Positions 1 to 36,751 of a stretch of DNA of 64,000 nucleotides are shown here, one piece after another. The translations under genes and the position numbers were made by a program. Within the stretch, counting starts at the first letter, position 1, and each line of letters opens with the position of its first letter. The notes beneath the pieces are model-generated. The model saw only the letters and a list, made by a program, of their open reading frames with translations, had not been told where the DNA came from and searched no databases. Source of the DNA: Sphingosinicella sp. BN140058. GTDB taxonomy: Bacteria; Pseudomonadota; Alphaproteobacteria; Sphingomonadales; Sphingomonadaceae. The stretch covers positions 4,411,501 through 4,475,500 of the forward strand of contig NZ_CP035501.1 in the NCBI RefSeq assembly GCF_004135585.1, written 5' to 3'.

Positions 1-483
1 CGCCTGGCGCTCGAGCAACATGGCGAGTCGTTCGAGGATCGTCGGCAGGCTGCCGGAACGCTCGCCGGCCGAGATCATCGCGCGGTAGAGCGGCGGGAAA
101 CTGCGCGGCTCCCGCGCCATCGCTTCGGAGAGCTGCCGTCCCTCGACGACGCCGCCATGCACCACCTCGATCACCCGACGGATGCGCGGACGCTCGCTTT
201 GCCGGATGAGCGTGCGCAGCGCTTCTTCGAGCGGCGTCACCTGCACGAGGGTGGAAAGCTGGCGGGTGAAGATCGCGAGCTGGTTGGAGGGCAGAGTGTC
301 GCGCACGAACAGCGGCCGTGCCCAGAATGGCTGAGCCGTGACCGGCGCACCGGATTCGAGGCGAACGACGTAGAGGCGCTTCGCCTGCAGCGCGGCGCGC
401 GCGCCCTCCGCCGTCGGCGCGCGCAGGGATCCGGTCTGCTCCCGGCCCGCGGTGTCGAGCGCAAGATAGGTGAACTCCGTCAC
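1..483 (-). CDS. gspF: Type II secretion system inner-membrane protein GspF, N-terminal part
   Basis: The first 161 residues of the polytopic platform protein of the T2SS are present; the rest lies beyond base 1. The N-terminus (VTEFTYLALDTAGREQTG) is the usual short beta segment of GspF. It is followed by the cytoplasmic four-helix domain with the family signature around FTRQLSTLVQVTPLEEAL and the SGERSGSLP motif near the break. The GTG at 483 is chosen because the upstream ATG at 513 runs into a stop before this frame. It is separated from gspM by a plus-strand peptidase gene and has its own upstream region with Pho-like repeats, so it probably begins a second gsp operon leading out of the window. 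Identity is confident; the start is moderately so. Confidence 0.9.
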   Translation of the reverse strand, partial: MTEFTYLALDTAGREQTGSLRAPTAEGARAALQAKRLYVVRLESGAPVTAQPFWARPLFVRDTLPSNQLAIFTRQLSTLVQVTPLEEALRTLIRQSERPRIRRVIEVVHGGVVEGRQLSEAMAREPRSFPPLYRAMISAGERSGSLPTILERLAMLLERQA

Positions 484-534
484 GCGGCGGCAGTCGAATC
501 GTCGGCCAACATGCGCGAAGGCTAGAAGCCGGGG

Positions 535-574
535 ATGACAGGCCGGTGCCGGTTTTGTTGCACTTTTGCGACAA
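535..574 (-). promoter_or_regulatory. Candidate PhoB-box array upstream of gspF
   Basis: On the minus strand four heptamers lie at exact 11-bp steps: TTGTCGC (568-574), GTGCAAC (557-563), CCGGCAC (546-552) and CTGTCAT (535-541). Against YTGTCAY they score 6, 4, 5 and 7 of 7. Two spacers are AAAA. A TCTAGC element 8 bp beyond the last heptamer could be a -10 box, and the gspD upstream region has a matching TGTAGC at the same offset. The assignment is by eye from the known Pho-box pattern. Confidence 0.5.
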
Positions 575-588
575 GACCGCCGCGTCTT

Positions 589-606
589 CTGTCGTCAGTC
601 TGTCAC
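589..606 (+). promoter_or_regulatory. Candidate PhoB box upstream of the M23 peptidase
   Basis: Two plus-strand heptamers, CTGTCGT (589-595) and CTGTCAC (600-606), are separated by 4 bp and so are 11 bp in phase. They match YTGTCAY at 6 of 7 and 7 of 7. This is the best-matching pair in the window. It points towards the peptidase gene whose start is 108 bp downstream, while the gspF array just to the left points the other way. Confidence 0.55.
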
Positions 607-714
607 AAAGTTCGGCTTGGATAGGCGCACGGGAATCATGTTGCCGGGCGATGCGCCGGCGCAGCCGGGGACTCCGATTTGTATCAAAACATGGACTATG
701 CGGAGGGAGGCGGC

Positions 715-2046
715 GTGGCAGCTTTCGCGCCCGCCAAATGGCCGGCCGTCGCAGCAATTTCGTTCCCGCAGCAGACACCCGGGCGTTCGTACAAGCGGGC
801 TACTTGTTGGGGCACGGCGGCGCTGTTCGGCACGGTGCTGGCCGTTGCCCTTGCCGCTTCTTTCGATGGTCCGGCCGTCGCGACCGCTCCGATTCTCCCT
901 CATGTCGCTGCACTTCCCGAAGTGCCAGATGCTTTGGAAGCGCAAGGAACGACCCTTCTCGTCGGGCTCGTGCCGGGCGAACGGATAGCGCGGGCGTTGG
1001 GCCGAGCCGGCGTCGCGGCAAGCGAGGCGGCCGCCGCCGAGCGCACCCTGGAGCAGGCGATCTTCACGACGATGCCCGCCGCGGGAACCGAACTGCGCCT
1101 CCAGCTGGGCGAACAACCAAGCTTCCTGGCCTCGCGCCCGCTCCGGACCGCGCGTTTCGTGACGGCCACCGGGGCCCGGCTGACGCTCGAACGCGCAGGC
1201 TCGGGCTTCCGGCTGCGGGCGGACGGTCCGACCGCATCCGAGCTGCCGCGCCGCTTCGAAGGTCCGATAGGCGGAGACCTGGTGCGCGCGCTCTGCGCCG
1301 CCGGGGTGACGCCGCGGGCAGCGACCGCCTTCCTCGCCGCGCTGCGCAGCCGGCGCAGCGCGGACGGCTTTGGTAACGATGATCGCTTTCTCGCCGTCAC
1401 CGACTACTCCGGCGCCTTGCTGCTGGCCAGGATCGATCGCGCGGATGGCCGCGGCATCGCGTTGATGCCGTGGACCTTCTCCGACGGCCGAACGATCTGG
1501 CTCGATGCGAACGGGGCCGGGACGCCGAGCAAAAGCCAGCGGCCGGTGCCCGGTCCCGTGTCGTCAGGTTTCGGCAGCCGCCTTCACCCGATCCTGGGCT
1601 TCTGGCGGATGCACAAGGGCATGGATTTCCGCGCCGCTGCCGGCACGCCGATCGTCGCCACGATGGACGGGCGGGTCTCGGCCGCCGGCTGGCACGGCGG
1701 CTATGGACGCCAGGTTCGGGTCGATCATCCTGGCGGTCTCGCCAGCTCTTATTCGCACATGCGGGAGATCGCGGTGACGCCGGGAACCTTGGTCCGTCAG
1801 GGGCAGCTGCTCGGCTATGTCGGATCGAGCGGCCTCTCGACGGGCCCGCACCTCCACTTCGAGTTGCTGCGCGGCGGCGTTCCGGTCGATCCGCTCAGTA
1901 TCGTTGCCCTACCGCTTACACGCCTGACCGGAGAGGATCTCGCAACCTTCCGGGAGAGGATGCGGCAGCTGGCTACGTTGCCGGCGGGCGCCGCGCCTGC
2001 GGCACAGGTCAGGGCTGCGGACGCTGGAACGTCACTTCGGCTTTGA
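715..2046 (+). CDS. M23 family metallopeptidase, membrane-anchored, inside the T2SS locus
   Basis: A peptidoglycan endopeptidase of the LytM/M23 type, 443 residues. It has a basic N-terminus, a single membrane segment at about residues 32-50, a long poorly conserved periplasmic region, and a C-terminal M23 domain with the zinc and catalytic motifs around H300/D304 (HKGMD) and H379/H381 (HLHFE). I prefer the GTG at 715 because GGAGGGAGG lies just upstream; in-frame TTG (679) and ATG (691) starts lack this. Its 3' end overlaps gspM on the other strand by 38 bp. Position between gspM and gspF plus a Pho-like box suggests a role in opening the cell wall for the secretin or in starvation remodelling, which is inference. 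All catalytic residues are visible, so it should be active. Confidence 0.88.
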   Translation: MAAFAPAKWPAVAAISFPQQTPGRSYKRATCWGTAALFGTVLAVALAASFDGPAVATAPILPHVAALPEVPDALEAQGTTLLVGLVPGERIARALGRAGVAASEAAAAERTLEQAIFTTMPAAGTELRLQLGEQPSFLASRPLRTARFVTATGARLTLERAGSGFRLRADGPTASELPRRFEGPIGGDLVRALCAAGVTPRAATAFLAALRSRRSADGFGNDDRFLAVTDYSGALLLARIDRADGRGIALMPWTFSDGRTIWLDANGAGTPSKSQRPVPGPVSSGFGSRLHPILGFWRMHKGMDFRAAAGTPIVATMDGRVSAAGWHGGYGRQVRVDHPGGLASSYSHMREIAVTPGTLVRQGQLLGYVGSSGLSTGPHLHFELLRGGVPVDPLSIVALPLTRLTGEDLATFRERMRQLATLPAGAAPAAQVRAADAGTSLRL

Positions 2047-2479
2047 GACCGGCAGCGCCGTTCGGCGCCGCCGACAGGCCCCGAACCGGCAGCCCTTCGG
2101 CCTCCATTGCTGCCAGCCAGCCGAACAGGACCTTGGGCTGCGCATCGTCGAAGGCGAGGCGGATCGTGCCATCCCGCGACTCGCTGCTGCGTGCAGTCAG
2201 GGCCACGGCGCCGGCGGTGGCGGTGAGCGCTTGTGCAGTGTGCCGCTTCGCAGGGCGAGCGGCGCCAAGAGCAGAGATCTGCCGTGCGTAATAGCGGGTC
2301 TCGCCAAGGGCTTGCACGGCGGCGTCCCGAGTCTCTGCCGCCGAACGCTGCGCGTCCCCGATCGGCCGGAGGATGAGCAGCCAGAGCAATGTCGCGCCAA
2401 GCAGCAGCGCCATGACGACGAGCAGGATCTGCTCGCGCTGCGATCGGCTGCTCCAAGCCCGTTCCAGGACGCCCGTCAT
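2009..2479 (-). CDS. gspM: Type II secretion system protein GspM
   Basis: A bitopic inner-membrane component of 156 residues that partners GspL in the T2SS assembly platform. It has a short charged cytoplasmic N-terminus, one strong membrane helix at about residues 18-37, a heptad-like coiled segment after it (RSAAETRDAAVQALGETRYY), then a compact ferredoxin-like periplasmic domain ending near VTFQRPQP. The start is placed at the ATG overlapping the gspL stop as ATGA, consistent with coupled translation; an ATG six codons upstream (2497) is an alternative. It is recognised more by topology, size and position after gspL than by strong motifs, as is normal for GspM. It is the last gene of the gspDEGLM run. 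Confidence 0.82.
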   Translation of the reverse strand: MTGVLERAWSSRSQREQILLVVMALLLGATLLWLLILRPIGDAQRSAAETRDAAVQALGETRYYARQISALGAARPAKRHTAQALTATAGAVALTARSSESRDGTIRLAFDDAQPKVLFGWLAAMEAEGLPVRGLSAAPNGAAGLKAEVTFQRPQP

Positions 2480-3645
2480 TGAGGTTTGACCAGCCATTGG
2501 CTTCTGCTTTCTCCTTCGGCGGCGCTCGGCGGCGGCCCGGCCACGGCATAGCCGGTCGCTTCGATCCGGGTGCGCAGGGCTGCGAGCGTCGCCGGGCTAT
2601 CTGCCTTCACTCCGATCGAGAGCACGCCGGCCTGGTAGGAAAGCCCGGTGAGCGATGCCATCGGCGTGTCGCGAACCGCCGCAAAGACGACAGCGCTTTC
2701 GGCGGAGAAGGCGCCGGGGCCGCCGCCGAGTTCGGACAGCCGCTCCTTCAATTGTGCGGCGGGATCGACGATACCGCGTCCGCGCGGCAAAGCCTGCGCA
2801 GCGATCGTGCGGGCTTCCTCTTCCATCCGCCCCGCAGCCGCGCTGTCGCGATAGGCGGCGACGAGCTGTGCGGCGATGGTGACGACGAGGATCGCGAACA
2901 ACAGCCAGGCAGCCCTTCGCACCAAGCTCGCCTGCACGCTTAGGCGTTGCCGTCCGAACGAGCCCTGGCGGAGATTGACGAGCGGGGTCGCGAGCGCTGC
3001 GGCAATACCGGCCGTCCAGGCCTGATCGGACAGCGGAAGAACGGGACGGTCGCCGAGCACGAGATCGGCGAGCGGCGTTTCCAGCGCGAACGCCTCGGCG
3101 GGACCGCGGCACAGCGCCATTCCCGACCGGTCGAGGCGAACCAGGCTTTCGCTCGCAGGCATGAGGAGGGCGGTTTCGGGCACGATCAGCCCCGGGTCGA
3201 GCCCCTCCTGCGTCAGGACCGCGAGCCACGCGTCCATCGCCGACGGCGAAACCAGGGCGACGCAGGTTGATCCGTTCTGCGTGGTCGCGCCGAGCGCAAG
3301 GTGCATGCCGCCGATCGGCTCTGCGGACAGATCGGCGACCATCAGCCGTGCCGCAGCGGCCGCCTGGGCAGGCGCGAGCCCCTGCGGGAGGTCAACCCAA
3401 TGCAGTGCTATCCGATCGCCGGGCACCACCGCAACGCAATCGCGCGCATCGTCCGGCCGCTCGACCGCAGCGAAGCGCCCGGTCTCATCGGTGGTCGCCC
3501 AACGCACCACGGCATCGCCTTGGAGGAAGGCGATCAGGCGTGGCGCGAGGCGCACCGGTTCGCTCGCTCCTCCGTCCGGCGCATTCGAAGCGCCCCGGAC
3601 GGGAGGCTCGGCAGCGTCAGAGGTCTGCGCTGCTGATATCGGCAT
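2476..3645 (-). CDS. gspL: Type II secretion system protein GspL
   Basis: A 389-residue inner-membrane protein that links the GspE ATPase to GspM. The N-terminal part, about residues 30-220, has the actin-like cytoplasmic fold features (for example IALHWVDLPQGL), followed by a single membrane helix at about 245-265 and a periplasmic domain. The chosen ATG at 3645 overlaps the end of gspG by 29 bp. In-frame ATG codons further up (3672 and 3708) would extend the overlap and encode a low-complexity extension. It sits in the order gspG-gspL-gspM; the pseudopilins H, I, J and K are not in between, so they must be encoded elsewhere, perhaps beyond gspF. Confidence 0.88.
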   Translation of the reverse strand: MPISAAQTSDAAEPPVRGASNAPDGGASEPVRLAPRLIAFLQGDAVVRWATTDETGRFAAVERPDDARDCVAVVPGDRIALHWVDLPQGLAPAQAAAAARLMVADLSAEPIGGMHLALGATTQNGSTCVALVSPSAMDAWLAVLTQEGLDPGLIVPETALLMPASESLVRLDRSGMALCRGPAEAFALETPLADLVLGDRPVLPLSDQAWTAGIAAALATPLVNLRQGSFGRQRLSVQASLVRRAAWLLFAILVVTIAAQLVAAYRDSAAAGRMEEEARTIAAQALPRGRGIVDPAAQLKERLSELGGGPGAFSAESAVVFAAVRDTPMASLTGLSYQAGVLSIGVKADSPATLAALRTRIEATGYAVAGPPPSAAEGESRSQWLVKPQ

Positions 3646-4036
3646 TCTGGTCTTCGCCCCCTGGCTTGCCATCACCGCCGAGGCTGGTGATCTCGAAGGC
3701 GCGGCCATTCCTGCCTGGCGCGCTATATTGATAGGCGTTGCCCCATGGATCGTTGGGCAGGCGCTTCACGTAGCCCTGGTCGACGACCGCCTTCAGCCCC
3801 TGTTGCGGGCTGGGATATTGGAGATTGTTCAGCCGGAACATCTCGACACCCTGCTCCAGCGTCGAAATGTCGGCTTTTGCCTTGGTCACCGCCGCCTTGT
3901 CGGTGGCGGGCATGACGTTGATGATCACCACCGTCGCCAGCAGCCCGATGATGACGATCACCACCATCAGCTCGACCAGGGTGAAGCCTGCTTCCGATGG
4001 CGCCGGACGGCGCCGGCGCGACGTTTCAATCCTCAT
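3617..4036 (-). CDS. gspG: Type II secretion system major pseudopilin GspG
   Basis: The major subunit of the periplasmic pseudopilus, 139 residues. A short basic leader is followed by the prepilin peptidase site EAGFTLVELMVV (cleavage between Gly17 and Phe18), the hydrophobic helix, and the GspG core with the PSPQQGLKAVV and NDPWGNAYQYSAPG stretches typical of the family. The ATG at 4036 overlaps the gspE stop by 11 bp, so the two are co-translated. It needs a GspO/PilD prepilin peptidase, which is not encoded here. No other pseudopilin gene is in the window. Confidence 0.95.
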   Translation of the reverse strand: MRIETSRRRRPAPSEAGFTLVELMVVIVIIGLLATVVIINVMPATDKAAVTKAKADISTLEQGVEMFRLNNLQYPSPQQGLKAVVDQGYVKRLPNDPWGNAYQYSAPGRNGRAFEITSLGGDGKPGGEDQNADISSADL

Positions 4037-5537
4037 CGACTGTGGTCCTCGAGATGCGAATGGCCTCTTCGGCGGTGGTGACGCCCTGGAGGACCAGGGT
4101 GCGCGCCGCCGAGGCGAGATTCTGGAAATTGCGGAAGGCATGGCTTGCGATCACCGCCTCGTCGCCCGAAGCATTGATCAGCCGGCGGAGGGCATCGTCG
4201 ATCCGTACCGCTTCGAACACGCCGATCCGGCCCTTGAAGCCGGCATTTCCGCAGGCGTGGCAGCCGACCGCGCGATAGACGATCGTTCCGGGTTCGAAGC
4301 CGAGCAGGGCGGCGAGCGACTTGTCCGCCTGCACCGGCTCGCGGCAGTCGGGGCACAGCCGGCGCACCAGCCGCTGGGCTATGACGGCGCGCAGGGTGGA
4401 GGCGAGCAGGAACGGCTCGATCTTCATGTCGCGCATGCGGGTGATCGCGCCGACCGCATCGTTGGTGTGAACGGTGGAGAGGACGAGATGCCCCGTGAGC
4501 GAGGCCTGCACGGCGATGTCGGCCGTCTCGCGGTCGCGTATCTCCCCGACCATGACGACATCCGGATCCTGGCGCAGAATCGCGCGCAGTCCGGCCGCGA
4601 AGCTTAAGCCGACCTTGGGATTGACCTGGGTCTGGCCGATGCCGTCGACCGCATATTCGACCGGATCCTCGACCGTCAGCACGTTGCGGGTGCCGTCGTT
4701 GAGCAGGCGAAGCCCGGAATAGAGGGTTGTCGTCTTTCCCGAACCGGTCGGCCCGGTGACGAGGACGATGCCGTTCGGCTCGGCCAGCGCCTCACGGTAG
4801 ATCTTCTCGACCGCCGGGGGCATTCCGAGAACGCCGAGATCGATCCCGGCGGTCGTCTTGTCGAGGATGCGGAGCACGACCCGTTCGCCGGCGCGGCTCG
4901 GCAGGGTGGAGACACGCACGTCGAGCAACTTGCCGGCGAGGGTGAGGCCGATGCGTCCGTCCTGGGGCACCCGCCGCTCTGCGATGTCGAGCCGCGCCAT
5001 GACCTTGATCCGGCTGACCACCACGGGCGCGACATGGGCGGGCATGCGCAGGGTCTCGCGCAGCACGCCATCGACCCGCATGCGGATGGTGAGGCCGCTC
5101 TCATAGGGCTCGACATGGATGTCCGAGACGCCCTGGCGCGCCGCGTCGGCGATGATGCCGTTGATCAGCCGGATCGCAGGGGCATCGTCGGCACTGTCGA
5201 GCAGGTCCTCGGCGGTCGGGATGTCGCCGGCGAGGTGGCTCAGTTCGTCGCCGAAGCCGAGGCTGTCGGCAACGTCGGCGGTGCCCTGTCCATCGAGCGA
5301 GTAACGCTCGGCGAGCAGCCGCTCGAACTGATCGGCGGGGGTGAAGCGGACATCGAATGGCCGCGCCAGAAAGCGCCGCATCTCGATCAGCACGCGCGGG
5401 TCCGCGCCCTGGCGCATCGCCACCGCGAGATGACCGTCCTCCGCGCCGAGCAGGGCGACGCCGAACCTGCGGGCGAAAGCGAACGGGATGTTGAGCGGCA
5501 GCGCCGGCGGAGCGGACGTGTCGGCTTCACCGCTCAT
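4026..5537 (-). CDS. gspE: Type II secretion ATPase GspE
   Basis: The cytoplasmic secretion ATPase of the T2SS, 503 residues. It has an N-terminal GspL-binding domain, then the conserved core with Walker A GPTGSGKTTT at about 262-271, the Asp-box region near TVEDPVEY, Walker B around GEIRDRETADIA (about 331), and the tetracysteine zinc domain (C395, C398, C426, C429) that distinguishes GspE and PilB from retraction ATPases. Its ATG overlaps the gspD stop by 4 bp (ATGA). The neighbouring secretin and pseudopilin genes settle the assignment to T2SS rather than type IV pili. Confidence 0.96.
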   Translation of the reverse strand: MSGEADTSAPPALPLNIPFAFARRFGVALLGAEDGHLAVAMRQGADPRVLIEMRRFLARPFDVRFTPADQFERLLAERYSLDGQGTADVADSLGFGDELSHLAGDIPTAEDLLDSADDAPAIRLINGIIADAARQGVSDIHVEPYESGLTIRMRVDGVLRETLRMPAHVAPVVVSRIKVMARLDIAERRVPQDGRIGLTLAGKLLDVRVSTLPSRAGERVVLRILDKTTAGIDLGVLGMPPAVEKIYREALAEPNGIVLVTGPTGSGKTTTLYSGLRLLNDGTRNVLTVEDPVEYAVDGIGQTQVNPKVGLSFAAGLRAILRQDPDVVMVGEIRDRETADIAVQASLTGHLVLSTVHTNDAVGAITRMRDMKIEPFLLASTLRAVIAQRLVRRLCPDCREPVQADKSLAALLGFEPGTIVYRAVGCHACGNAGFKGRIGVFEAVRIDDALRRLINASGDEAVIASHAFRNFQNLASAARTLVLQGVTTAEEAIRISRTTVDED

Positions 5538-7681
5538 CGTGCCTCTCCCGGCACTGGCGCGGGCAGCGCGGCGGGCGGCTCCGGAGCCTGGGGCGGCGCG
5601 GCGCCGAGATAATCGCGGACGAGCTCGTCGATGGTCGGTTCCTCGTTGGGATGAAATTGCGCCTGGCGGTCACGGATGTAGCCGTAACGCTGGGCGGAGA
5701 CCGCGCGGGCGTCCTCGGCGGAGCGGAGGATGGTCGGGCGAATGAACACCATCAGATTGGTCTTGGTGCGCGAGCGGCTCTTCGACCGGAACAGCGCGCC
5801 GAGCACCGGCAGGTCGGAGAGGAACGGGATCGCCTCGATCGTCTTGCGATCATTGTCGTCGAGCAGGCCGCCGATGCCGACGATCTCGCCGTCGTCGACG
5901 GTGATGGTGGTTTCGAGCTGACGCTTGTTGAGGATGAGATCGGTGGAATTGCGGGCGACCGGGCCGGCGATCGAGCTGACCTCCTGGCGGAGCATCATCT
6001 TGATCGAGCCGCCAGCGTTGATCTGCGGCTTCACCTCCAGGCTGATGCCGACATTCTGCCGCTGGACGGTGCGGAACTGATTGTCGAAATTCTGGCTCAG
6101 CGTCTCGCCGGTGGTTACCGGCACTTCCTGGCCGACGAGGATCCGCGCTTCCTGATTGTCGAGGGTCATGATCGACGGCGTCGACAGGATGTTGGAGCGT
6201 GTGTCGGCCTTCACCGCATTGACGATCGCGCCGAAAATCGCGTTGCCGCTCTTGATCGCGAAACCGGTGAGGCCGCCGTTCGCGCCGAGCAGTGAATTGA
6301 CCGCCGCTTCCTGCAGGGTGTCGGCCACGGTGGAGCTCTGGGTCGTGGTCACCACCTCGCCGTTCACCGTCGTTGTCGTGGTGCGAAGCTTCTCTGCGGC
6401 GACCGCGCCAGCCACGGTGAGGATGTTGGGATTGGCATTCGAGTAATTGGTGACGGCGAAGGGGACGTTGCTGCCCTTGAGCCCGGCCATCAGCAGCTGG
6501 ACGCCGAGCTGCCTGGCCGCCTGGTCGGAAATCTCGACGATGATCGCTTCGACCAGCACCTGCTCGCGGCGCGTGTCGAGCTGGCGCACGACTTCGCCGA
6601 GGCTGCGCTGGATGTCCTGGGGCGCGGCGATGATGATCGCATTCGCACCCTCGAAGCGGGTGACGACGGCGTTGCGACCACCGAACACCCCGGCGCCGCT
6701 CTGGGTCACCTCTGCGGCGGGAATCGGCGTGCTCTGCACGGCGGGCCTGGCCTGCGATTGCTGCGGCGCGCGCGCGTCCATGATGCTCTGCGATGCGCTA
6801 AGGCCGGTCGGCTGCGGCGCTGCGCTGGCGGGCTGGCCGAGCAATTGCTGCAGCACCGGCAGCAACTGCGCCGCATCGGCATGTTCGAGGAAGATCACCC
6901 GCACTTCGGTGCCCGCGGCAGCGCGCTGATCGAGTTCGGTCGCCATCGCGGCGAGGCGAGCGACGGTCGCGGAATCGCCGCGGATGGCGATCGAATTCGA
7001 GCTGTCGATCGGGACGATGGCCGCACCGCCGCCATTCGCCTGGCCATTGCCCATCAGCGTGTTGAGCGATGCTGCGATCTCTCGCGCGCCGGCATTCTGC
7101 AGCGCGACGATCCGGGCATTGCTGGTGTCGCGATCGATGCCGGCGAGCACCTGGCGGATCCGGGAGACGTTGTCGCGATAATCGGCAACCACGATCGAGT
7201 TGCGGGTGGCGGTGATGGAGCCTTCGCGGCTGACCAGCGGCCGCAGGGTCTCGAGCGCCGCACTGCCCTCGATGTGGCGTGGGCGGAAGATTTCCGTGAC
7301 GAAGCTGTTGGGGCTGCCGCGCCCGCCGATCCGGCTTGGCGCAGTGGCGCCGTTCGCCGCCGGCTGGATGCGCAGGCCGCCGCCGGCGGTCGGCACCGCG
7401 ATCAGGCCGCTCGAGCGCAAGGTGGAGAGGAACAGTTCGAAATATTCCGATTTGGACAACGGCCGCTGGGTGACCACCGAGACTTTCCCCTGCACGGCCG
7501 GATCGACGATGAAGGTTCGACCCGTGACGCGCGCCGCGTCCTCTACGAAGGCGCGAATGTCGGCCTCGCGGAAGTTGACGCTGTACTGCGCCAGGGCCGG
7601 CGCCGCCGGAACCAGGGCGAACAGGCAGACGGCGGCGGTGAGGCGCAGCAGGCGAGATTTCGAACGGGGAATCGAGTTCAT
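5534..7681 (-). CDS. gspD: Type II secretion system secretin GspD
   Basis: The outer-membrane channel of the T2SS, 715 residues. A signal peptide ends near residue 31 (PALA-QY). The N0 domain follows (VNFREADIRAFVEDAARVTG), then N1-N3 domains with the repeated IVALQNAGAREIA and REQVLVEAIIVEI patterns, and the secretin core with VGQEVPVTTGE and the final VPFLSDLP-type sequence (EAIPFLSDLPVLGALFR). The C-terminus is proline-rich and lacks an obvious pilotin-binding S domain. It is the first gsp gene of the run, with Pho-like repeats 23-51 bp ahead of the ATG and no clear ribosome-binding site, so a very short leader is possible. gspC, which usually precedes gspD, is not present here; a TonB receptor gene lies there instead. 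Confidence 0.96.
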   Translation of the reverse strand: MNSIPRSKSRLLRLTAAVCLFALVPAAPALAQYSVNFREADIRAFVEDAARVTGRTFIVDPAVQGKVSVVTQRPLSKSEYFELFLSTLRSSGLIAVPTAGGGLRIQPAANGATAPSRIGGRGSPNSFVTEIFRPRHIEGSAALETLRPLVSREGSITATRNSIVVADYRDNVSRIRQVLAGIDRDTSNARIVALQNAGAREIAASLNTLMGNGQANGGGAAIVPIDSSNSIAIRGDSATVARLAAMATELDQRAAAGTEVRVIFLEHADAAQLLPVLQQLLGQPASAAPQPTGLSASQSIMDARAPQQSQARPAVQSTPIPAAEVTQSGAGVFGGRNAVVTRFEGANAIIIAAPQDIQRSLGEVVRQLDTRREQVLVEAIIVEISDQAARQLGVQLLMAGLKGSNVPFAVTNYSNANPNILTVAGAVAAEKLRTTTTTVNGEVVTTTQSSTVADTLQEAAVNSLLGANGGLTGFAIKSGNAIFGAIVNAVKADTRSNILSTPSIMTLDNQEARILVGQEVPVTTGETLSQNFDNQFRTVQRQNVGISLEVKPQINAGGSIKMMLRQEVSSIAGPVARNSTDLILNKRQLETTITVDDGEIVGIGGLLDDNDRKTIEAIPFLSDLPVLGALFRSKSRSRTKTNLMVFIRPTILRSAEDARAVSAQRYGYIRDRQAQFHPNEEPTIDELVRDYLGAAPPQAPEPPAALPAPVPGEAR

Positions 7682-7703
7682 GCCGTGGGGCTACAGCCGC
7701 AAG

Positions 7704-7732
7704 ATGACGGCACCTTTGTACTTTTGTGACGG
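7704..7732 (-). promoter_or_regulatory. Candidate PhoB-box triplet upstream of gspD
   Basis: Three minus-strand heptamers at 11-bp spacing: CCGTCAC (7726-7732), GTACAAA (7715-7721) and CCGTCAT (7704-7710). The outer two match YTGTCAY at 6 of 7; the middle one is poor (3 of 7). The section CACAAAAGTACAA closely resembles CGCAAAAGTGCAA upstream of gspF. A TGTAGC element 8 bp downstream would serve as -10 and leave only a few bases of leader before the gspD ATG. Confidence 0.45.
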
Positions 7733-7830
7733 AATTGTTTCGTCGCCGCTGCGGCGGCTGAAACAAAGGGTGGCGGCAGCGCCGAGCGCTCCGCCACCAG
7801 GTGGGGGACCTTGTCCTATGTGGTACGAAG

Positions 7831-7858
7831 CGCTCCTCCTCGCGGGCGAGGAGGAGCG
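7831..7858 (-). terminator. Hairpin terminator candidate after the first TonB receptor gene
   Basis: A 13-bp perfect inverted repeat (arms 7831-7843 and 7846-7858, CGCTCCTCCTCGC and its complement) lies 18 bp past the receptor stop codon and before the gspD promoter region. No clear T run follows on the minus strand, so it may be Rho-assisted or a 3'-end stabiliser. Confidence 0.5.
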
Positions 7859-7875
7859 TCAACGAATGGCCCTGC

Positions 7876-10620
7876 CTAGAAGGTCGCGCTGAGCCCGAAG
7901 CTCGCGGTCGTGCCGATCTTGTAGAGATTGTAGTAGATGCGGTTGTCGCCGCTCTGCTGATATTCCTTGTATTTGGTTCCGGTGATGTTGCGGACCTCGA
8001 ACTTGGCTTCGAGGTCGACTCCGCCGATATTGATCCCCTGGCGCGCGACGAAATCGAGGCGGAAGCCCGGATATTCGATGATGTCCGGCTGCTGCGCTGC
8101 GCCGCGGTTGGTAACCCGTTTGCTGGCGTAAGTGAGCAGCAGGGTCTGCTGTGACAGCCGGTCCGTATCCTCGAGCCCGAGCTGGAGATTGACGAGGTGA
8201 TCGGACTGGCCGGTGAGCGGCGTGCCGTCGCGGAACAGGTCGGTTGCCTTGGTCGACGAGGACGCGAACAGCGCCACCGTGTCGTTTTCGTTCACCTTCA
8301 CCTTCGATTTGCTGTAGGTGTAGTTGGCGATCAGCACCGCCCGTCGCGATTGCCAGAAGGCGCCGCTGGAGAGGCCGCTCAGATCGAAATATTTCTGGGA
8401 CTCGACCTCGGCGCCATACAGGTTTGCCTTGGGCGCGTTGGCGAAGCTCGACAGCACGGCATTGTCGCTGAAGCTGGCGAAGGTCTCGATCGGATTGTCG
8501 ATCCGCTTGTAGAAGCCCGACAGCGAGAAGCGCTGGTCCCGCCCGAAATAATATTCGTAGCGTGCTTCGGCATTGTAGAGCTGGCTGTCGACCAGCAAGG
8601 GATTGCCGCGGAACTGGCGATTGTTGTCGGGATCGAAATAGAGCTGGTAGATGAGCTCGCGGAATTGCGGACGCGCAATCGTCTTCGAGCCGCTGACCCG
8701 GATCTGCATGTCGGGCCGGAACTGCCAGGTGAGCGTCGCCGCCGGCAGGAAGTAGTCGCGGTGGAGGCTGGTGCCGGCAAGCGATGCCGTCGGGGTGGTG
8801 AAGACCTGCACCGGATCGACGGTCTGGTCCGCTTTTTCCCAGCGGATGCCGTAATTGAGGCTGAGCTCGTCGCTGAACTGCGCCTGGATCTGGCCGTAGG
8901 CAGCGTGGTTGCGCAGCTTGGCGTCGAATACCGGGTTGCCCTCGTTGGTGTCGACCAGCCCGATGTCGTAGAAATCGATCACCGACGGCTGCAGCAGATA
9001 ATCCGGTCGGAACATCGCGACGCCGCTCGGGAAGGTGCTCGGCGCGATGAACAGGAAGTCGCGCCGTTCCGTCCGACGGCTGGTATCGGAGAAAGCATAG
9101 CCTGCGGTGAGCGTCAGCCCTTGAGTCGCCTTGTAGGTGAGGTCGGCGCCGGCGGACCACAAATCCTCGTTGAGATCGGAGAAGCTGATCTCGGCATTGC
9201 CCTGCTGACCATTGTTCAGCCGGTTGATGTAATATTGGCCATAGGGATCGTCGGCGCGGTTGCTGCGGAAATATTCGTAGCTGATCTCGAACGGCGCTTC
9301 GCGCTGCGAGTTGGCGTATCCGCCGCGCAGGTCGAGGCTGAGATCCCGGCTCAGCTTGAACTCGCCGACGAGCTGGCTGTCGATCAGCTGGCGTTCGAAC
9401 CATGCCGTGTCCTGCTGTTGCAGGGTCGCGGTCGGCGACGTCGTCTGCCGCGAGCCCTCGCCGAGACGGCTCTGCTTAATCGTGTCGCGTATGTAGAGGT
9501 TGGTCCAGCGGATCTGGTTCCGGCCGAACTCGAGACCGAGGCCGAGCAGGCCGTTCACCACGATCCGGTTGTCGGTGATGACCCTGCGGAAATCCAGTTC
9601 CTTCTCGCTCAGGTCGGCATTGGCGGCCGTCTGCTGGATCGTGTCGCGGCTGCGCCAATCGTTCTTGTAGCCGGCGGTGGCGATGAGGCCGAGCCGCGTG
9701 TCGCCGCCGAGATCGAAGGAGGTGCCGCCGGTGATCTGGCCGGAGAAATTGGGCGGAAGGTGCTTCCAACGTTGCAAAATGGAATTGCGCGAATTGATCA
9801 ACTCCCCGGCGATCGCCTGGGTGTCGACATTGCCCTCGCTGATCCGGTCGCCGCTGTTCAGAAATGCGGCGAGGGCAGGCGGCATGTCGCGGCTGCCGTT
9901 GTCGAAGCCGGTCCAGTCGCTCTTGCTGCCGTAATAAGTGTAGCCGAGCTGGCCGGTTGCCTCGCTGTCGGCTTCGATCGCGCCGCCGATGGTGAGAAAG
10001 CTCTCGGTCGGCACCGAACGAGTGGTGAGGTTGATCACGCCGCCGCCGAATTCGCCGGGGAAGTTCACCGAATAGCTCTTCTGAACGAGCGACGAGGCGA
10101 TCACGCTGGTCGGGAACAGATCGAGCGGAACGACGCGCCGCAGCGGTTCGGGGCTCGGCAACGGGGAGCCGTTGAGCAAGGCCAGCGAATAGCGATCGCC
10201 GAGACCGCGCACGTAGACGAAACCGCTGCCGACCACGCTGAGGCCGGTGACGCGGCTGAGCGCGCCGGCGATGTCGCCCTCGCCGGTCCGCGCGATGTCG
10301 GCGGACGACAGCACCGAGACCACCTGGGGCGTGATCCGCGTGATGTCGCGCGACCGCGTGCCGACCACGACGATTTCCGCGTCCGCGCCCGGGATCGAGA
10401 CCTCGGGCGCCGCTTCGTCGGGGGCTTCAGCCTCGCCGGCTCCAGCCTCGGTCGGGGCACCGGGGACGGAAGGGTCGTCCGGCGTGGCGACGGCATTGCT
10501 GTCGGGAACGCTCGGACCCGCCTGGTTCGGGGCGCCTGCGTCCTGCGCCAGGGCCGCCGCCGGGGCGACGAGAGCGGTGGAAAGCAGCAGCATGGTGGTC
10601 GCCGCCAACGTGTTGGACAT
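7876..10620 (-). CDS. TonB-dependent outer-membrane receptor adjoining the T2SS genes
   Basis: A 914-residue outer-membrane active transporter. A signal peptide ends near residue 26 (ALA-QDAG), followed by a long acidic Pro/Ala-rich linker and a TonB-box-like EIVVVGTRSRD. The plug domain contains VTGLSVVGSGFVYVRGLGDRYSLALLNG, and a 22-strand barrel ends in the aromatic C-terminus FGLSATF. I prefer the second ATG (10620), with GGGG upstream, over 10632. The plug resembles that of Caulobacter/sphingomonad receptors linked to secreted lipoproteins rather than siderophore receptors; the substrate is unknown. It lies just downstream of the lipoprotein gene on the same strand and just upstream of gspD, an arrangement that suggests the receptor takes up what the secreted lipoprotein releases or binds. 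That role is inference. Confidence 0.9.
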   Translation of the reverse strand: MSNTLAATTMLLLSTALVAPAAALAQDAGAPNQAGPSVPDSNAVATPDDPSVPGAPTEAGAGEAEAPDEAAPEVSIPGADAEIVVVGTRSRDITRITPQVVSVLSSADIARTGEGDIAGALSRVTGLSVVGSGFVYVRGLGDRYSLALLNGSPLPSPEPLRRVVPLDLFPTSVIASSLVQKSYSVNFPGEFGGGVINLTTRSVPTESFLTIGGAIEADSEATGQLGYTYYGSKSDWTGFDNGSRDMPPALAAFLNSGDRISEGNVDTQAIAGELINSRNSILQRWKHLPPNFSGQITGGTSFDLGGDTRLGLIATAGYKNDWRSRDTIQQTAANADLSEKELDFRRVITDNRIVVNGLLGLGLEFGRNQIRWTNLYIRDTIKQSRLGEGSRQTTSPTATLQQQDTAWFERQLIDSQLVGEFKLSRDLSLDLRGGYANSQREAPFEISYEYFRSNRADDPYGQYYINRLNNGQQGNAEISFSDLNEDLWSAGADLTYKATQGLTLTAGYAFSDTSRRTERRDFLFIAPSTFPSGVAMFRPDYLLQPSVIDFYDIGLVDTNEGNPVFDAKLRNHAAYGQIQAQFSDELSLNYGIRWEKADQTVDPVQVFTTPTASLAGTSLHRDYFLPAATLTWQFRPDMQIRVSGSKTIARPQFRELIYQLYFDPDNNRQFRGNPLLVDSQLYNAEARYEYYFGRDQRFSLSGFYKRIDNPIETFASFSDNAVLSSFANAPKANLYGAEVESQKYFDLSGLSSGAFWQSRRAVLIANYTYSKSKVKVNENDTVALFASSSTKATDLFRDGTPLTGQSDHLVNLQLGLEDTDRLSQQTLLLTYASKRVTNRGAAQQPDIIEYPGFRLDFVARQGINIGGVDLEAKFEVRNITGTKYKEYQQSGDNRIYYNLYKIGTTASFGLSATF

Positions 10621-10646
10621 GTTCAGCCCCATAAAGTGTGAGAAGA

Positions 10647-10677
10647 GCGGGGCAGCGGCTTCGATGCCGCGCCCCGC
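10647..10677 (-). other. Intercistronic hairpin between lipoprotein and receptor genes
   Basis: An interrupted inverted repeat in the 81-bp gap: GCGGGGC pairs with GCCCCGC and GCGGC with GCCGC around a 6-base loop, with a single bulged A. On the minus strand it is followed by a pyrimidine-rich stretch. It may partly terminate transcription or protect the upstream mRNA, giving more lipoprotein than receptor. Confidence 0.5.
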
Positions 10678-10701
10678 CCGTTCGAGTTCAGATCATTCGG
10701 C

Positions 10702-12279
10702 TCAGGTCGTCGGGATGGTGGTGCAGAGCCCGCCGCCGCCGAGGTCGGCGGTGGCGCTGTTGCAGGTCCAGCCCTTGTACCAAGTGTCCGACGCATCCTT
10801 GACCGCGCCGATGTAGGTCGTCTTGTCGAAGAAGCTGGCGATCGAGCTCGCGTCGAACGCGGGCACCGCCGTCTCCGTCGCGCCGTTGACGAAGATGCTT
10901 GTCAGGGTGGAGACGTAGGCGTCGTTGTTGTTGTTGCTTCCGCTGCCGAAGATCGAGGCGACCTGCGCATCGGTGACGCTGTTGGCGCCGAGATATTTCG
11001 GCGTGCCGCAGGTCATCTGCACCGAGCGGAACACCGGCGGGCCGGCTTCGTCCTGCGCCGGATCGGCGGCCTGGATGGTGTTGGCGCGGCTGATGCGCAG
11101 GCACGAAAGGCCCGAGCTCACCAGCACGCTGTTGACCAAAGTATAGTCGGTGCCGCCGCGCAGCAGGATCGCGGCGAGATCCGAGCCGGTGCTGGAACGC
11201 TGGATGAAGGTCGCGTTCGAGACTCGCACGTTCTGGCGCGGCGTGTTGCCGTCGACGGCATTGTCCGAATCCGCTTCGATCATCGCGTCGCCGAGGCCGT
11301 TGCGCTGGACGGCGAGGACGTACTGGAAGTTGCCCTTGACGCCGGTGTCGGTGTCGAGATTGTCGTCCTCCGCACCGATCGACACGAAATACTTCATGTT
11401 GACCACGCCGCCGAAGAATTCGGCGCCGTCATCCGAGCTGTTGAACGACATGATGTGATCGAGCTGGGTGCCGCTGCCGGTGCCCGAGGTGGTCAGCGAC
11501 TGCAGCTCGCTGTTGTTCGACAGGACGAAGCCCGAATAGCGGATCTGGGCATAGCTGATCCGGCCGCTGCTGTCGTTGGCGGTGGCGCCGCCATATTTGG
11601 CCGGGTCGGCCGCACCTTCGGTCTGCCGTTCGCAGGCGACGGTGCCGGGGGCCGCGCCCGGATTTTCACAATCGGTGATCGGCGCGCGGCCGAGCAGCAC
11701 GACGCCGCCCCACTGGCCCGACGAATTGTCGGTGGTGAGGCCGAGAATGTTGTCGCGGCTGGTGAAAATGATCGGCTGCGTGGCGGTGCCGACCGCCTGG
11801 ATCTTGTTGCCGCGATTGACCGCGAGCCACGACACGCCGGTGCCGCCGAACACGATCACGCCCGGATCGATGGTCAGCGTCACATTGGTATCGGCGGCGC
11901 TGGCGGTCGGGCCGCCGTCGGTGCCGACGTCGACCCGGCCGCCGAGGCGGTAGACGAGGCCGGCAACCTTGGTCAGCTGGATGCTCTTGTTGATCCGCGC
12001 CGGTAGGGTGCAGACACGCCAGGTGCCGGTCGGACCCTCGATCGTACCCGAATCGGTCAGGCCCTGCGGATCGGCGATGGTCGGGCAGCCCGCGGCCGCG
12101 GTCACCTTGGTGGGCGAGGGCGGCGGCGGCGGCGGCGCGGGCGGGGTCGGCGCCGGCGGGTTGATGATCACGTCGCCGCCGGTTCCGGGCGACGCGATAT
12201 CGTCGGCGCCGCAGGCGGCGAGCAGGGTCGTCAGCGGTATCAAGGTGGACAGAAGCAGGAGCGAGCGGCTGCGAGACAT
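10702..12279 (-). CDS. Secreted-type lipoprotein, candidate T2SS cargo
   Basis: A 525-residue protein with a lipoprotein signal peptide and lipobox LAAC (Cys23), then a proline-rich linker (about residues 42-57) typical of surface-exposed lipoproteins. The body is rich in Gly, Ser, Thr, Asn and Asp with repeated short turns (VTLTIDPGVIVFGG, QWGGVVLLGRAPI, DDGAEFFGG, VRVSNATF) that look like a right-handed parallel beta-helix. No catalytic motif is recognised. A strong ribosome-binding site (AGGGGG) precedes the ATG. Together with the downstream receptor and gsp genes and the Pho-like upstream repeats, it recalls in outline the phosphate-starvation lipoprotein ElpS secreted by the Caulobacter T2SS; sequence homology to ElpS is not established here. 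Cys pairs along the body suggest disulphides. Confidence 0.78.
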   Translation of the reverse strand: MSRSRSLLLLSTLIPLTTLLAACGADDIASPGTGGDVIINPPAPTPPAPPPPPPSPTKVTAAAGCPTIADPQGLTDSGTIEGPTGTWRVCTLPARINKSIQLTKVAGLVYRLGGRVDVGTDGGPTASAADTNVTLTIDPGVIVFGGTGVSWLAVNRGNKIQAVGTATQPIIFTSRDNILGLTTDNSSGQWGGVVLLGRAPITDCENPGAAPGTVACERQTEGAADPAKYGGATANDSSGRISYAQIRYSGFVLSNNSELQSLTTSGTGSGTQLDHIMSFNSSDDGAEFFGGVVNMKYFVSIGAEDDNLDTDTGVKGNFQYVLAVQRNGLGDAMIEADSDNAVDGNTPRQNVRVSNATFIQRSSTGSDLAAILLRGGTDYTLVNSVLVSSGLSCLRISRANTIQAADPAQDEAGPPVFRSVQMTCGTPKYLGANSVTDAQVASIFGSGSNNNNDAYVSTLTSIFVNGATETAVPAFDASSIASFFDKTTYIGAVKDASDTWYKGWTCNSATADLGGGGLCTTIPTT

Positions 12280-12357
12280 GGAAACCCCCTAGGAGTGGTC
12301 GAACGAAGGAAGCCCGCTGCGGCGGGTCTGCCCTTGCGACTCTGGCTAAAGGGAGTC

Positions 12358-12384
12358 TGTGATACTTGTGTTACATGTGAAACG
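12358..12384 (-). repeat. Three tandem 9-bp repeats in the lipoprotein leader
   Basis: On the plus strand the units are TGTGATACT, TGTGTTACA and TGTGAAACG, back to back; on the coding strand each reads as GTNNCACA. They lie 79-105 bp upstream of the lipoprotein ATG, between the heptamer array and the ribosome-binding site, so may be in the untranslated leader. The 9-bp period does not fit the DNA helix, which favours an RNA-level role or chance. Confidence 0.5.
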
Positions 12385-12408
12385 ACTTGGCGATAACTCA
12401 GAAGATCC

Positions 12409-12448
12409 GTGTCTTACTTGTGAGATTATCATGAAACAAAAGTGTCAT
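12409..12448 (-). promoter_or_regulatory. Weak PhoB-box-like array upstream of the lipoprotein gene
   Basis: Four minus-strand heptamers in 11-bp phase: ATGACAC (12442-12448), GTTTCAT (12431-12437), ATCTCAC (12420-12426) and AAGACAC (12409-12415), matching YTGTCAY at 5, 5, 5 and 4 of 7. All end in CAC or CAT and the spacers are mostly A/T. Individually weak; the phase and the stronger boxes at neighbouring genes are the reason to list it. Confidence 0.35.
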
Positions 12449-15084: not shown

Positions 15085-15193
15085 CGTGTCTCCTCGGAAG
15101 CAGGGCAGTCCCCGAAGACTGTTCCTCGCCCCGACACCGGTCAATTTGATTTATTAACCGTAACGATCTTGCCGTATCGCTGTGTTCAAATTG

Positions 15194-34393: not shown

Positions 34394-34422
34394 ATGTCAC
34401 CATAATGTCGCGGGGGCGTCAT
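34394..34422 (+). promoter_or_regulatory. Candidate PhoB-box triplet upstream of the receptor-phospholipase C operon
   Basis: Three plus-strand heptamers in exact 11-bp phase: ATGTCAC (34394-34400), ATGTCGC (34405-34411) and GCGTCAT (34416-34422), matching YTGTCAY at 6, 5 and 5 of 7. A further in-phase CGATCAC occurs at 34438-34444. The array is 134 bp ahead of the receptor start and points towards it. No -10 box is assigned. Confidence 0.5.
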
Positions 34423-34555: not shown

Positions 34556-36751
34556 GTGACGAACATTGCGACGAGGAGCCTTGCCGGCTTCTTGATGGCC
34601 GGCTGCATCTCGGTGCCGGCGATGGCGGCCGATCTGGCGTCAAAGGCGGGCGAAGACGATGTGACGGCCGAAGCGCGCGGGGACGACGCCGCTGCGGACG
34701 AGCAGAGCGAGGCCGAGATCCTGGTCACCGGCAAGGCGGTGCGCAGCAGTCCGCTCGCGGCCGGTGTCGCCGAATATGGCAATGCCGTCCAGATCGTCGA
34801 TTCCGCCGCGATCGAGGCGAGCGGCGCCACCAATTTCGCCGAAGCGGTGCAGTTCCTCGTCAAGGGCGCGAACATCGGCTACTCGCCGGACGAGGGCGAA
34901 TATACGATCCGGCTGGACGGCGGCGGCGACCGCGACACCCTGGTCGTGCTCGACGGCGTACCGCTTTACGATCGGGGCCCTGCGCTCGAGGAGATTTGGG
35001 GCGCGACCACGATCGACCCACACATGATCGACCGGGTCGAAGTGTTTCGCGGCGGCAACAGCCTCTTCTTCGGCAGCAATGGCGGCATCGGCGTAGTCAG
35101 CGTCGTCACCAAAAAGCCGGACGGCGGCAAGCGCTTCGAGTTCGGTGCCAATGTCGGCTCATTCGGCACCCGCGACATCTGGGGCAACGTCTCGTTTCCG
35201 CTCGATACCGACGGTCGCCACTCGATCATGATCTACGGCACCGCCCAGCACACCGACAATCCGCGCATCTTCAATCCGGCCGATTTCGTCGACAATGTCG
35301 CGGCCGGCGGCGGAATTCAGGAATTCCCGACCGATCGCGACAATGTCGGCGTGAAATATCTGTGGAAGCCCGACGATCGCACCGAATTCCGCGTGAACGG
35401 TCAGTTCACCCAGATCCAGTTCCATGATCCGTTCCCGGACACCAACACCTATTCGCCGAACACGGTGAAATATCCGATCGTCGATGCGAGCTTCGTGCGG
35501 ACCTGGTCGGAGCGGCTGACGACCGAGGTCTCGGCTTATTGGAGCAATCCGCAGCTTTCCAACACCGAGACTTTCCCGGAAGTGTGCATGATCAAGACCG
35601 GGTGCGTCAGCCCGTCGACGGGACAGGCGATCGCCTGGGGCAAATATACCGGCCGCAACATCGCATTCCCGAACCAGGGCTTCGGCCCCGACTCGAAGAA
35701 GAGCGGCTTTCGCGAACTCGGCGGCAATGCCCGCGCGACCTTCACCATCCCCAACGCGATCGAGGTGGTCGGCGGCGTCCAGATCGTCTCCTACAAGGAT
35801 GACTCCGATCCGGTGTTCCCGGTCGGCAACGAAGCGACCACGATCACCGGGCTTTATGCGGACTTCCGGCCGGTGCTGCCGTTCAGCCCCGCGACCAGGA
35901 TCTCGCTGGCCGTCCGCACCGACTTCGCCGACAGCTTCGGATCGAAGACGATCTGGAAGTTCGGCCTGCGCCAGCCGATCGGCGACTTCTACCTTCGCGC
36001 CAATGGCGGCACCTCTTACAGCACGCCCAAGAATAACGAGCTGCACGCGGAGAGCGCGACCACGGTCGGCAACCCCGATCTCAAGACCGAGGAGACCGAG
36101 ACCTACAATGTCGGGATCGGCTACGGCGCCGGCTTCGGTGCCGTCCGGGTCAATGCCGAAATCGGCGGCTTCCACACCGACATCACCAACCGCATCCAGT
36201 CGACGTCGGGCCTCACGCCCAATACCTTTTTCAACAACGATCGCATCACTCAGATACGCGGCCTCACTGCCGAACTGGACGTCGCGATCGGCAGCCAGTT
36301 CGCCGCGAACGTCAGCTACACCAAGCAGCAGGCGCGGCTCGACGGCAGCAAGCTGCAGATCAACGAAACGCCGGAATATATCGTCCAGGGCAATTTCGCC
36401 TGGCATTCCTCGGACCGGCACTTCCACGTCAATTTGATGCCGCGCTATCAGGGGCCGGAATATGCGACCGGGGGCGTCAACGCGGCACTGCGCACCAATT
36501 TCGGCAATTACTTCGTCGCCAATGCCTCGATCGCGTACTGGGCGGGTGCCGAGCGCCAGCATCGTTTCCAGCTGCGCATCGCCAATCTGTTCGACGCCGA
36601 CTATGCCGAGCGCTGGGCCTACGGAAACACGCGGTTCAGCGAGGCTTTCGTCACGGGGCAGATCAAGCTCAACGGACCCGGTTACTTCTACGGCTATCCG
36701 TTCGAGGGCAAACCGCGCAGCTATTATCTTTCCTACATGACCCAATTCTGA
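34556..36751 (+). CDS. TonB-dependent outer-membrane receptor (third), paired with phospholipase C
   Basis: A 731-residue outer-membrane receptor. A signal peptide ends near AMAADLAS, a TonB-box-like EAEILVTGKAV follows, the plug contains RDTLVVLDGVPLYDRGP and VEVFRGGNSLFFGSNGGIGVVSVVTKKP, and the barrel ends at YYLSYMTQF. GTG start with AGGGGGA upstream. It is 16 bp ahead of the phospholipase C gene and surely co-transcribed. The pairing suggests it imports a phosphorus- or choline-containing product, or a phospholipid headgroup, released by the enzyme; that is inference. The Pho-like repeats ahead of it fit this view. Confidence 0.92.
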   Translation: MTNIATRSLAGFLMAGCISVPAMAADLASKAGEDDVTAEARGDDAAADEQSEAEILVTGKAVRSSPLAAGVAEYGNAVQIVDSAAIEASGATNFAEAVQFLVKGANIGYSPDEGEYTIRLDGGGDRDTLVVLDGVPLYDRGPALEEIWGATTIDPHMIDRVEVFRGGNSLFFGSNGGIGVVSVVTKKPDGGKRFEFGANVGSFGTRDIWGNVSFPLDTDGRHSIMIYGTAQHTDNPRIFNPADFVDNVAAGGGIQEFPTDRDNVGVKYLWKPDDRTEFRVNGQFTQIQFHDPFPDTNTYSPNTVKYPIVDASFVRTWSERLTTEVSAYWSNPQLSNTETFPEVCMIKTGCVSPSTGQAIAWGKYTGRNIAFPNQGFGPDSKKSGFRELGGNARATFTIPNAIEVVGGVQIVSYKDDSDPVFPVGNEATTITGLYADFRPVLPFSPATRISLAVRTDFADSFGSKTIWKFGLRQPIGDFYLRANGGTSYSTPKNNELHAESATTVGNPDLKTEETETYNVGIGYGAGFGAVRVNAEIGGFHTDITNRIQSTSGLTPNTFFNNDRITQIRGLTAELDVAIGSQFAANVSYTKQQARLDGSKLQINETPEYIVQGNFAWHSSDRHFHVNLMPRYQGPEYATGGVNAALRTNFGNYFVANASIAYWAGAERQHRFQLRIANLFDADYAERWAYGNTRFSEAFVTGQIKLNGPGYFYGYPFEGKPRSYYLSYMTQF

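Follow-up and report, generated by a model that had tools for sequence, protein, structure and literature searches.

A split type II secretion locus with phased Pho-like promoter arrays in Sphingosinicella sp. BN140058 and its probable control by PhoB

We detected a type II secretion system (T2SS) locus at one edge of the window, the whole 64-kb stretch of DNA analysed here, which is part of a 5.72-Mb contig in a 6.07-Mb genome (Table 1). On the minus strand, a lipoprotein gene is followed by a TonB-dependent receptor gene and by gspD, gspE, gspG, gspL and gspM. Pfam and NCBIfam assigned GspF, the M23 peptidase, GspM, GspL, GspG, GspE, GspD and the receptor to the families given by a first-pass annotation made from the letters alone, but the M23 gene, placed between gspM and gspF, proved to be encoded on the plus strand and divergent from gspF, and the split and rearrangement of the T2SS relative to related genomes had gone unnoticed. 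Past the window edge, gspF leads into a second minus-strand group with gspH, I, J, K, O, C and N. The genome's single T2SSC match is the gspC beside the window, near the end of this second group, and the core Gsp set is complete (D, E, G, L, M and F in the window; H, I, J, K, O, N and C adjoining). The true start of gspG is probably internal to the called frame, with a prepilin motif at residue 50, and the M23 protein retains its metal ligands (HKGMD at residue 312 for HxxxD, HLH at 391 for HxH; Pfam E 1.3e-32). A second TonB receptor gene (window 12619-15144) lies directly upstream of the lipoprotein gene and more than 20 kb away in the sister genome G015; between the first receptor gene and gspD there is a GC-rich long inverted repeat with no T-run (window 7831-7858), which the G015 alignment does not show in the same form.

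Table 1. Genes and promoter arrays of the secretion locus and of a second Pho-array gene pair, by position in the window.
Feature	Position	Strand	Basis
gspF, head of second T2SS gene group, continues outside window	1..483	-	Pfam/NCBIfam, neighbouring DNA
gspF array TTGTCGC-aaaa-GTGCAAC-aaaa-CCGGCAC-cggc-CTGTCAT, N8, TCTAGC	521..574	-	matrix, G015 alignment
M23 box CTGTCGT-cagt-CTGTCAC, 14 bp from divergent gspF array	589..606	+	consensus, matrix, G015 alignment
M23 (LytM) endopeptidase, MepM/ShyA-like	679..2046	+	Pfam/NCBIfam, motifs
gspM	2009..2497	-	domain match
gspL	2476..3708	-	Pfam/NCBIfam
gspG major pseudopilin	3617..4141	-	Pfam/NCBIfam
gspE ATPase	4026..5537	-	Pfam/NCBIfam
gspD secretin, head of first T2SS gene group	5534..7681	-	Pfam/NCBIfam
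gspD array CCGTCAC-aaaa-GTACAAA-ggtg-CCGTCAT, N8, TGTAGC	7690..7732	-	matrix, G015 alignment
TonB-dependent receptor, 69 bp after lipoprotein, without own Pho array	7876..10632	-	Pfam/NCBIfam, matrix
ElpS-like lipoprotein of the outer membrane (525 aa, LAAC lipobox; right-handed beta-helix predicted)	10702..12279	-	sequence, alignment, AlphaFold2
Lipoprotein proximal Pho box ATGTAAC-acaa-GTATCAC, N8, TTTAGC (-10-like)	12345..12376	-	matrix, G015 alignment
Lipoprotein distal Pho-like array, four heptamers at 11 bp: ATGACAC, GTTTCAT, ATCTCAC, AAGACAC	12409..12448	-	matrix, G015 alignment
Second Pho array ATGTCAC-cata-ATGTCGC-gggg-GCGTCAT	34394..34422	+	matrix, rank 1 by triple among 166 intergenic regions
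TonB-dependent receptor behind second Pho array	34556..36751	+	sequence
Phosphocholine-specific phospholipase C, twin-arginine-like start	36768..38846	+	sequence

The lipoprotein matched no Pfam or NCBIfam family. It has the lipobox and the size of about 50 kDa that mark the ElpS-type module, its lipobox cysteine is invariant in a 12-sequence alignment, and it matches relatives from Brevundimonas, Phenylobacterium and Asticcacaulis at 37-43%. AlphaFold2 with the 12 sequences (mean pLDDT 70.5, good from about residue 60 to 450 and poor at both ends) predicts a right-handed beta-helix. In Caulobacter crescentus, elpS (cc0170), the TonB receptor gene cc0171 and gspC-N are reported to be adjacent, with the T2SS in the PhoB regulon (PMC2996285, PMC11208175). 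ElpS is described there as a Pi-regulated lipoprotein made under phosphate starvation and anchored at the surface, with a release that depends on the T2SS; its overproduction raises phosphatase activity, and it is apparently no phosphatase itself (PMC2996285). The locus resembles that of Caulobacter in that lipoprotein, TonB receptor and T2SS genes are adjacent and run in one direction, but differs in having two separate groups of gsp genes, with the M23 gene between them, headed by gspD and gspF, each with an array of its own. The elpS-T2SS loci of Sphingomonas alaskensis, Xanthomonas campestris and Hyphomonas neptunium have the same neighbours, and for these three the available text of PMC2996285 gives gene order, not Pho boxes.

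Arrays of heptamers phased at 11 bp had been proposed ahead of gspF, the M23 gene, gspD and the lipoprotein gene, and all four stood out with a heptamer-spacer matrix trained on the pstS upstream regions of 29 relatives, the genome's own pstS being left out (30 were fetched, and L079, its best site matching just 7/12, was dropped beforehand). Own pstS scored 25.0 for the best pair and 34.2 for the best triple. Against 7880 overlapping 300-bp windows taken from 400 kb sampled in this genome, the gspF array (pair 16.2, triple 22.7) was equalled by 0/7880 on either measure and the lipoprotein array by 0/7880 for its pair (15.3), with a triple of 12.3 (p 0.0004), while gspD reached a triple of 9.7 (p 0.0005; best pair p 0.022) and the M23 box a pair of 13.5 (p 0.0011; triple p 0.013). 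A second ranking used 166 upstream intergenic regions, taken from the window and from 20 sampled stretches, with genes called by a simple codon-usage gene finder; the set contains the regions of the lipoprotein and gspD but not the window-edge regions of gspF and M23. By pair, gspF and the lipoprotein each ranked 1, M23 ranked 3 and gspD 9; by triple, gspD ranked 3. The gspF and lipoprotein arrays stand at the top and those of gspD and M23 near it, though these two are weak taken singly. The receptor gene and the next receptor gene upstream gave no matrix signal (pair p 0.35 and 0.39). Proteins with RTX repeats and cadherin repeats (L091 9664-13140 and L094 6876-11408) had fair upstream Pho-pair scores of 11.2 and 9.7.

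Consensus searches revealed less. A plain search of the window gave 24 matches with up to 3 mismatches against 18 expected, and exact TGTMAY-N5-TGTMAY occurs at 5 places in the whole genome, 0 of them in the secretion locus, so that by consensus each array is modest, as had been said of them at the outset. With at most one mismatch to YTGTCAY-N4-YTGTCAY, 8 places were found genome-wide, against 1 for the backward pattern. The M23 pair is among these 8, but at least 3 of them fall within called genes, so consensus matches alone prove little. Another of the near-consensus places starts 62 bp ahead of phoU, and behind phoU comes a gene for a PhoB-type response regulator; the genome's own pstS box reads GTGTCAT-gaaa-GTGTCAT-gcga-GTGTCAC. 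The phoU Pho box (L013 5092-6554, G000:C1 about 1.816 Mb) is far from pstS at 2.755 Mb. One exact Pho pair, TGTCACgaaagTGTAAT (L199 1501-1517), is followed after about 30 bp by a reading frame whose start resembles that of a lipoprotein.

The window's gspF, gspD and lipoprotein promoters all share the form heptamer-N8-NNTAGC; the M23 box lacks the N8-TAGC element. Across relatives, heptamer-N8-YNTAG precedes the lipoprotein gene at exactly 8 bp in 41/74 upstream regions (at most 4 for the other spacings tried; 0.1% of shuffles) and is present in 6/21 gspC promoters. Heptamer-N8-NNTA is absent upstream of the genome's own pstS and phoU, and spacing is mixed in the 29-sequence pstS set (N5 in 11, N8 in 9), so the N8 rule is not a pstS rule. 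This compact promoter rule of heptamer, 8 bp and TAG is usable to find such targets in Sphingomonadaceae.

The sister genome G015 carries a 90% identical lipoprotein, the same rearranged gene order and all four arrays. In its alignment the gspF array is almost unchanged amid differing surrounding DNA, the proximal lipoprotein box and TTTAGC are unchanged, and the distal lipoprotein array largely keeps its heptamers with changed spacers. We extended the survey to 80 named loci, in which the receptor was found in 79/80 and gspD lay on the fetched stretch in 22/80, several contigs being short. Relatives whose T2SS adjoins the lipoprotein-receptor pair mostly show the order lipoprotein, receptor, C, D, E, F, G, and in some the T2SS runs in the opposite direction. 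An array precedes the lipoprotein gene in 68/74 complete upstream regions (shuffles 1.5%; the reversed regions match in 9/74, above shuffles) and also gspC, normally the leading gene of the T2SS, in 16/21 relatives (shuffles 0.3%); the matrix found none before the receptor gene (0/64), gspD (0/22), gspE (0/22), gspF (0/22) or gspG (0/21). The six array-less lipoprotein upstream regions include Caulobacterales (L172, L178, L179) and Xanthomonas (L170), and the matrix finds no gspC array in two Brevundimonas (L172, L177). Caulobacterales are the order of the experimental precedent, yet the matrix misses lipoprotein arrays at three of its loci and gspC arrays at two.

The gspC box is present even where lipoprotein and T2SS genes are unlinked (7/10 cases); it was detected in 8/11 linked cases and in 0/4 genomes where the lipoprotein was not found (25 of 30 fetched gspD loci scorable; Fisher p 0.017, an optimistic value since the relatives are not independent). 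Completeness is below 90% for two of these four genomes without the lipoprotein, and one of the four negatives, G021, falls narrowly below the threshold (triple 7.3 vs 7.5). One genome, G020 (L185, L210), has two T2SS, of which the lipoprotein-linked one has a gspC box and the other does not.

A further link to phosphate is that the lipoprotein gene lies less than 25 kb from pstS in 5 of 39 genomes holding both (G005, G020, G033, G095 and G096; G004, a partial match, left out), with a binomial p of about 0.001 that is likewise optimistic and refers to a cut-off chosen after the distances were seen. In the genome studied here, the lipoprotein gene is not within 25 kb of pstS. A Porin O/P (phosphate-selective porin) gene is found beside a histidine kinase gene and pstS (L011 12023-13639). 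The window holds another Pho-array gene pair, a TonB-dependent receptor gene and a phospholipase C gene, whose array is also present in G015, where most of the heptamers are identical and the spacers differ. At E 1e-60, the receptor of this pair has matches in 2/79 genomes. Pseudomonas aeruginosa uses its T2SS (Xcp with PlcH, Hxc with LapA) to export phosphate-releasing enzymes in phosphate starvation, and its PlcH and PlcN are reported to be Tat-dependent, made under phosphate starvation and T2SS-secreted (PMC4899797). Given this parallel, the Pho array and the twin-arginine-like start, the window's phospholipase C is a candidate T2SS cargo, a prediction here; the available text of PMC4899797 does not mention an ElpS-like lipoprotein or an adjacent receptor.

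The gene content, the significance and conservation of the arrays, the promoter architecture and the split gene order, all read from the DNA, suggest that this locus is very probably a rearranged version of the Caulobacter ElpS/T2SS unit, serving to scavenge phosphate under the control of PhoB. The phased boxes match the genome's own pstS box, less closely for gspD and M23, and the box before phoU-phoB, and are conserved at orthologous promoters. Together with conservation in G015 and most relatives, and the Caulobacter precedent, this lends support to the PhoB-driven secretion and uptake unit that the first-pass annotation had proposed. When phosphate is short, PhoR would phosphorylate PhoB, which would then bind the 11-bp-phased heptamer arrays and recruit RNA polymerase to the lipoprotein-receptor operon, gspDEGLM, gspFHIJKOCN and probably the divergent M23 gene; PhoB as the binder, induction and T2SS-dependent release of the lipoprotein are suggested by analogy with Caulobacter. 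The T2SS would export phosphate-releasing enzymes, likely including the Tat-type phospholipase C, and the beta-helix surface lipoprotein and the receptor may act at the cell surface on the phosphorus source, whether released or bound. A possible role of the M23 enzyme is to make room in the peptidoglycan for the secretin. Operon limits, cargo, the receptor's ligand and the role of M23 are what we infer in this scheme. The receptor has no array before it, and Caulobacter cc0171 has been reported as constitutive. A locus of this type would extend PhoB-controlled type II secretion, on sequence evidence, from Caulobacter and Pseudomonas to Sphingomonadaceae.

While the kind of unit is known from Caulobacter, what is new is the splitting of the T2SS, with gspC near the end of the second group and both leading genes arrayed; a literature search found neither such a split, re-promoted arrangement nor box conservation across sphingomonads. 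In both this genome and G015, gspD and gspF bear arrays as group leaders, while in relatives they are array-less internal genes. It is an even call whether selection keeps phosphate control rather than gene order, such that a sphingomonad co-regulon unites the ElpS-like lipoprotein with the T2SS and is PhoB-wired even when its parts are separated, gspD and gspF each came to have a Pho promoter when the operon broke in this lineage, and the M23 endopeptidase joined the regulon to make cell-wall room for the secretin. We give equal weight to the split being no regulatory rewiring at all, in which case the promoter that once served gspC passed to gspD on the departure of gspC, and gspF brought a pre-existing Pho promoter along when it moved. 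The gspD array may indeed be inherited from the old gspC promoter: in relatives gspC is normally boxed and lies directly before gspD, and nothing we found for gspD speaks against this origin, which opposes only the rewiring reading and is compatible with PhoB control of the unit. Either way, the locus is a natural case of a secretion operon that was split with phosphate control at both new heads.

Phased repeats are shared by OmpR-family sites, and T2SS and TonB receptor genes are envelope genes. The arrays might thus bind another OmpR/PhoB-family regulator such as ChvI and the unit might answer envelope stress instead of phosphate, but we consider this improbable, as only pstS promoters went into the training of the matrix, the Caulobacter T2SS belongs to the PhoB regulon (PMC11208175), and the arrays are unlike the reported ChvI motifs, TTGC-N3-GCAA in Caulobacter and N-GCC-N8-GCC in Sinorhizobium (PMC9731502). 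Equally doubtful is that the lipoprotein-receptor operon is the sole real Pho target, with chance arrays at gspD, gspF and M23 and a constitutive T2SS: taken one by one, the gspD and M23 arrays are modest, and Caulobacter gspE and gspL were expressed even in rich medium, their mRNA rising 1.7-fold in poor medium (PMC2996285), but the gspF array exceeds every background window, both the gspD and gspF arrays survive in G015, and gspC is arrayed in most of the relatives scored.
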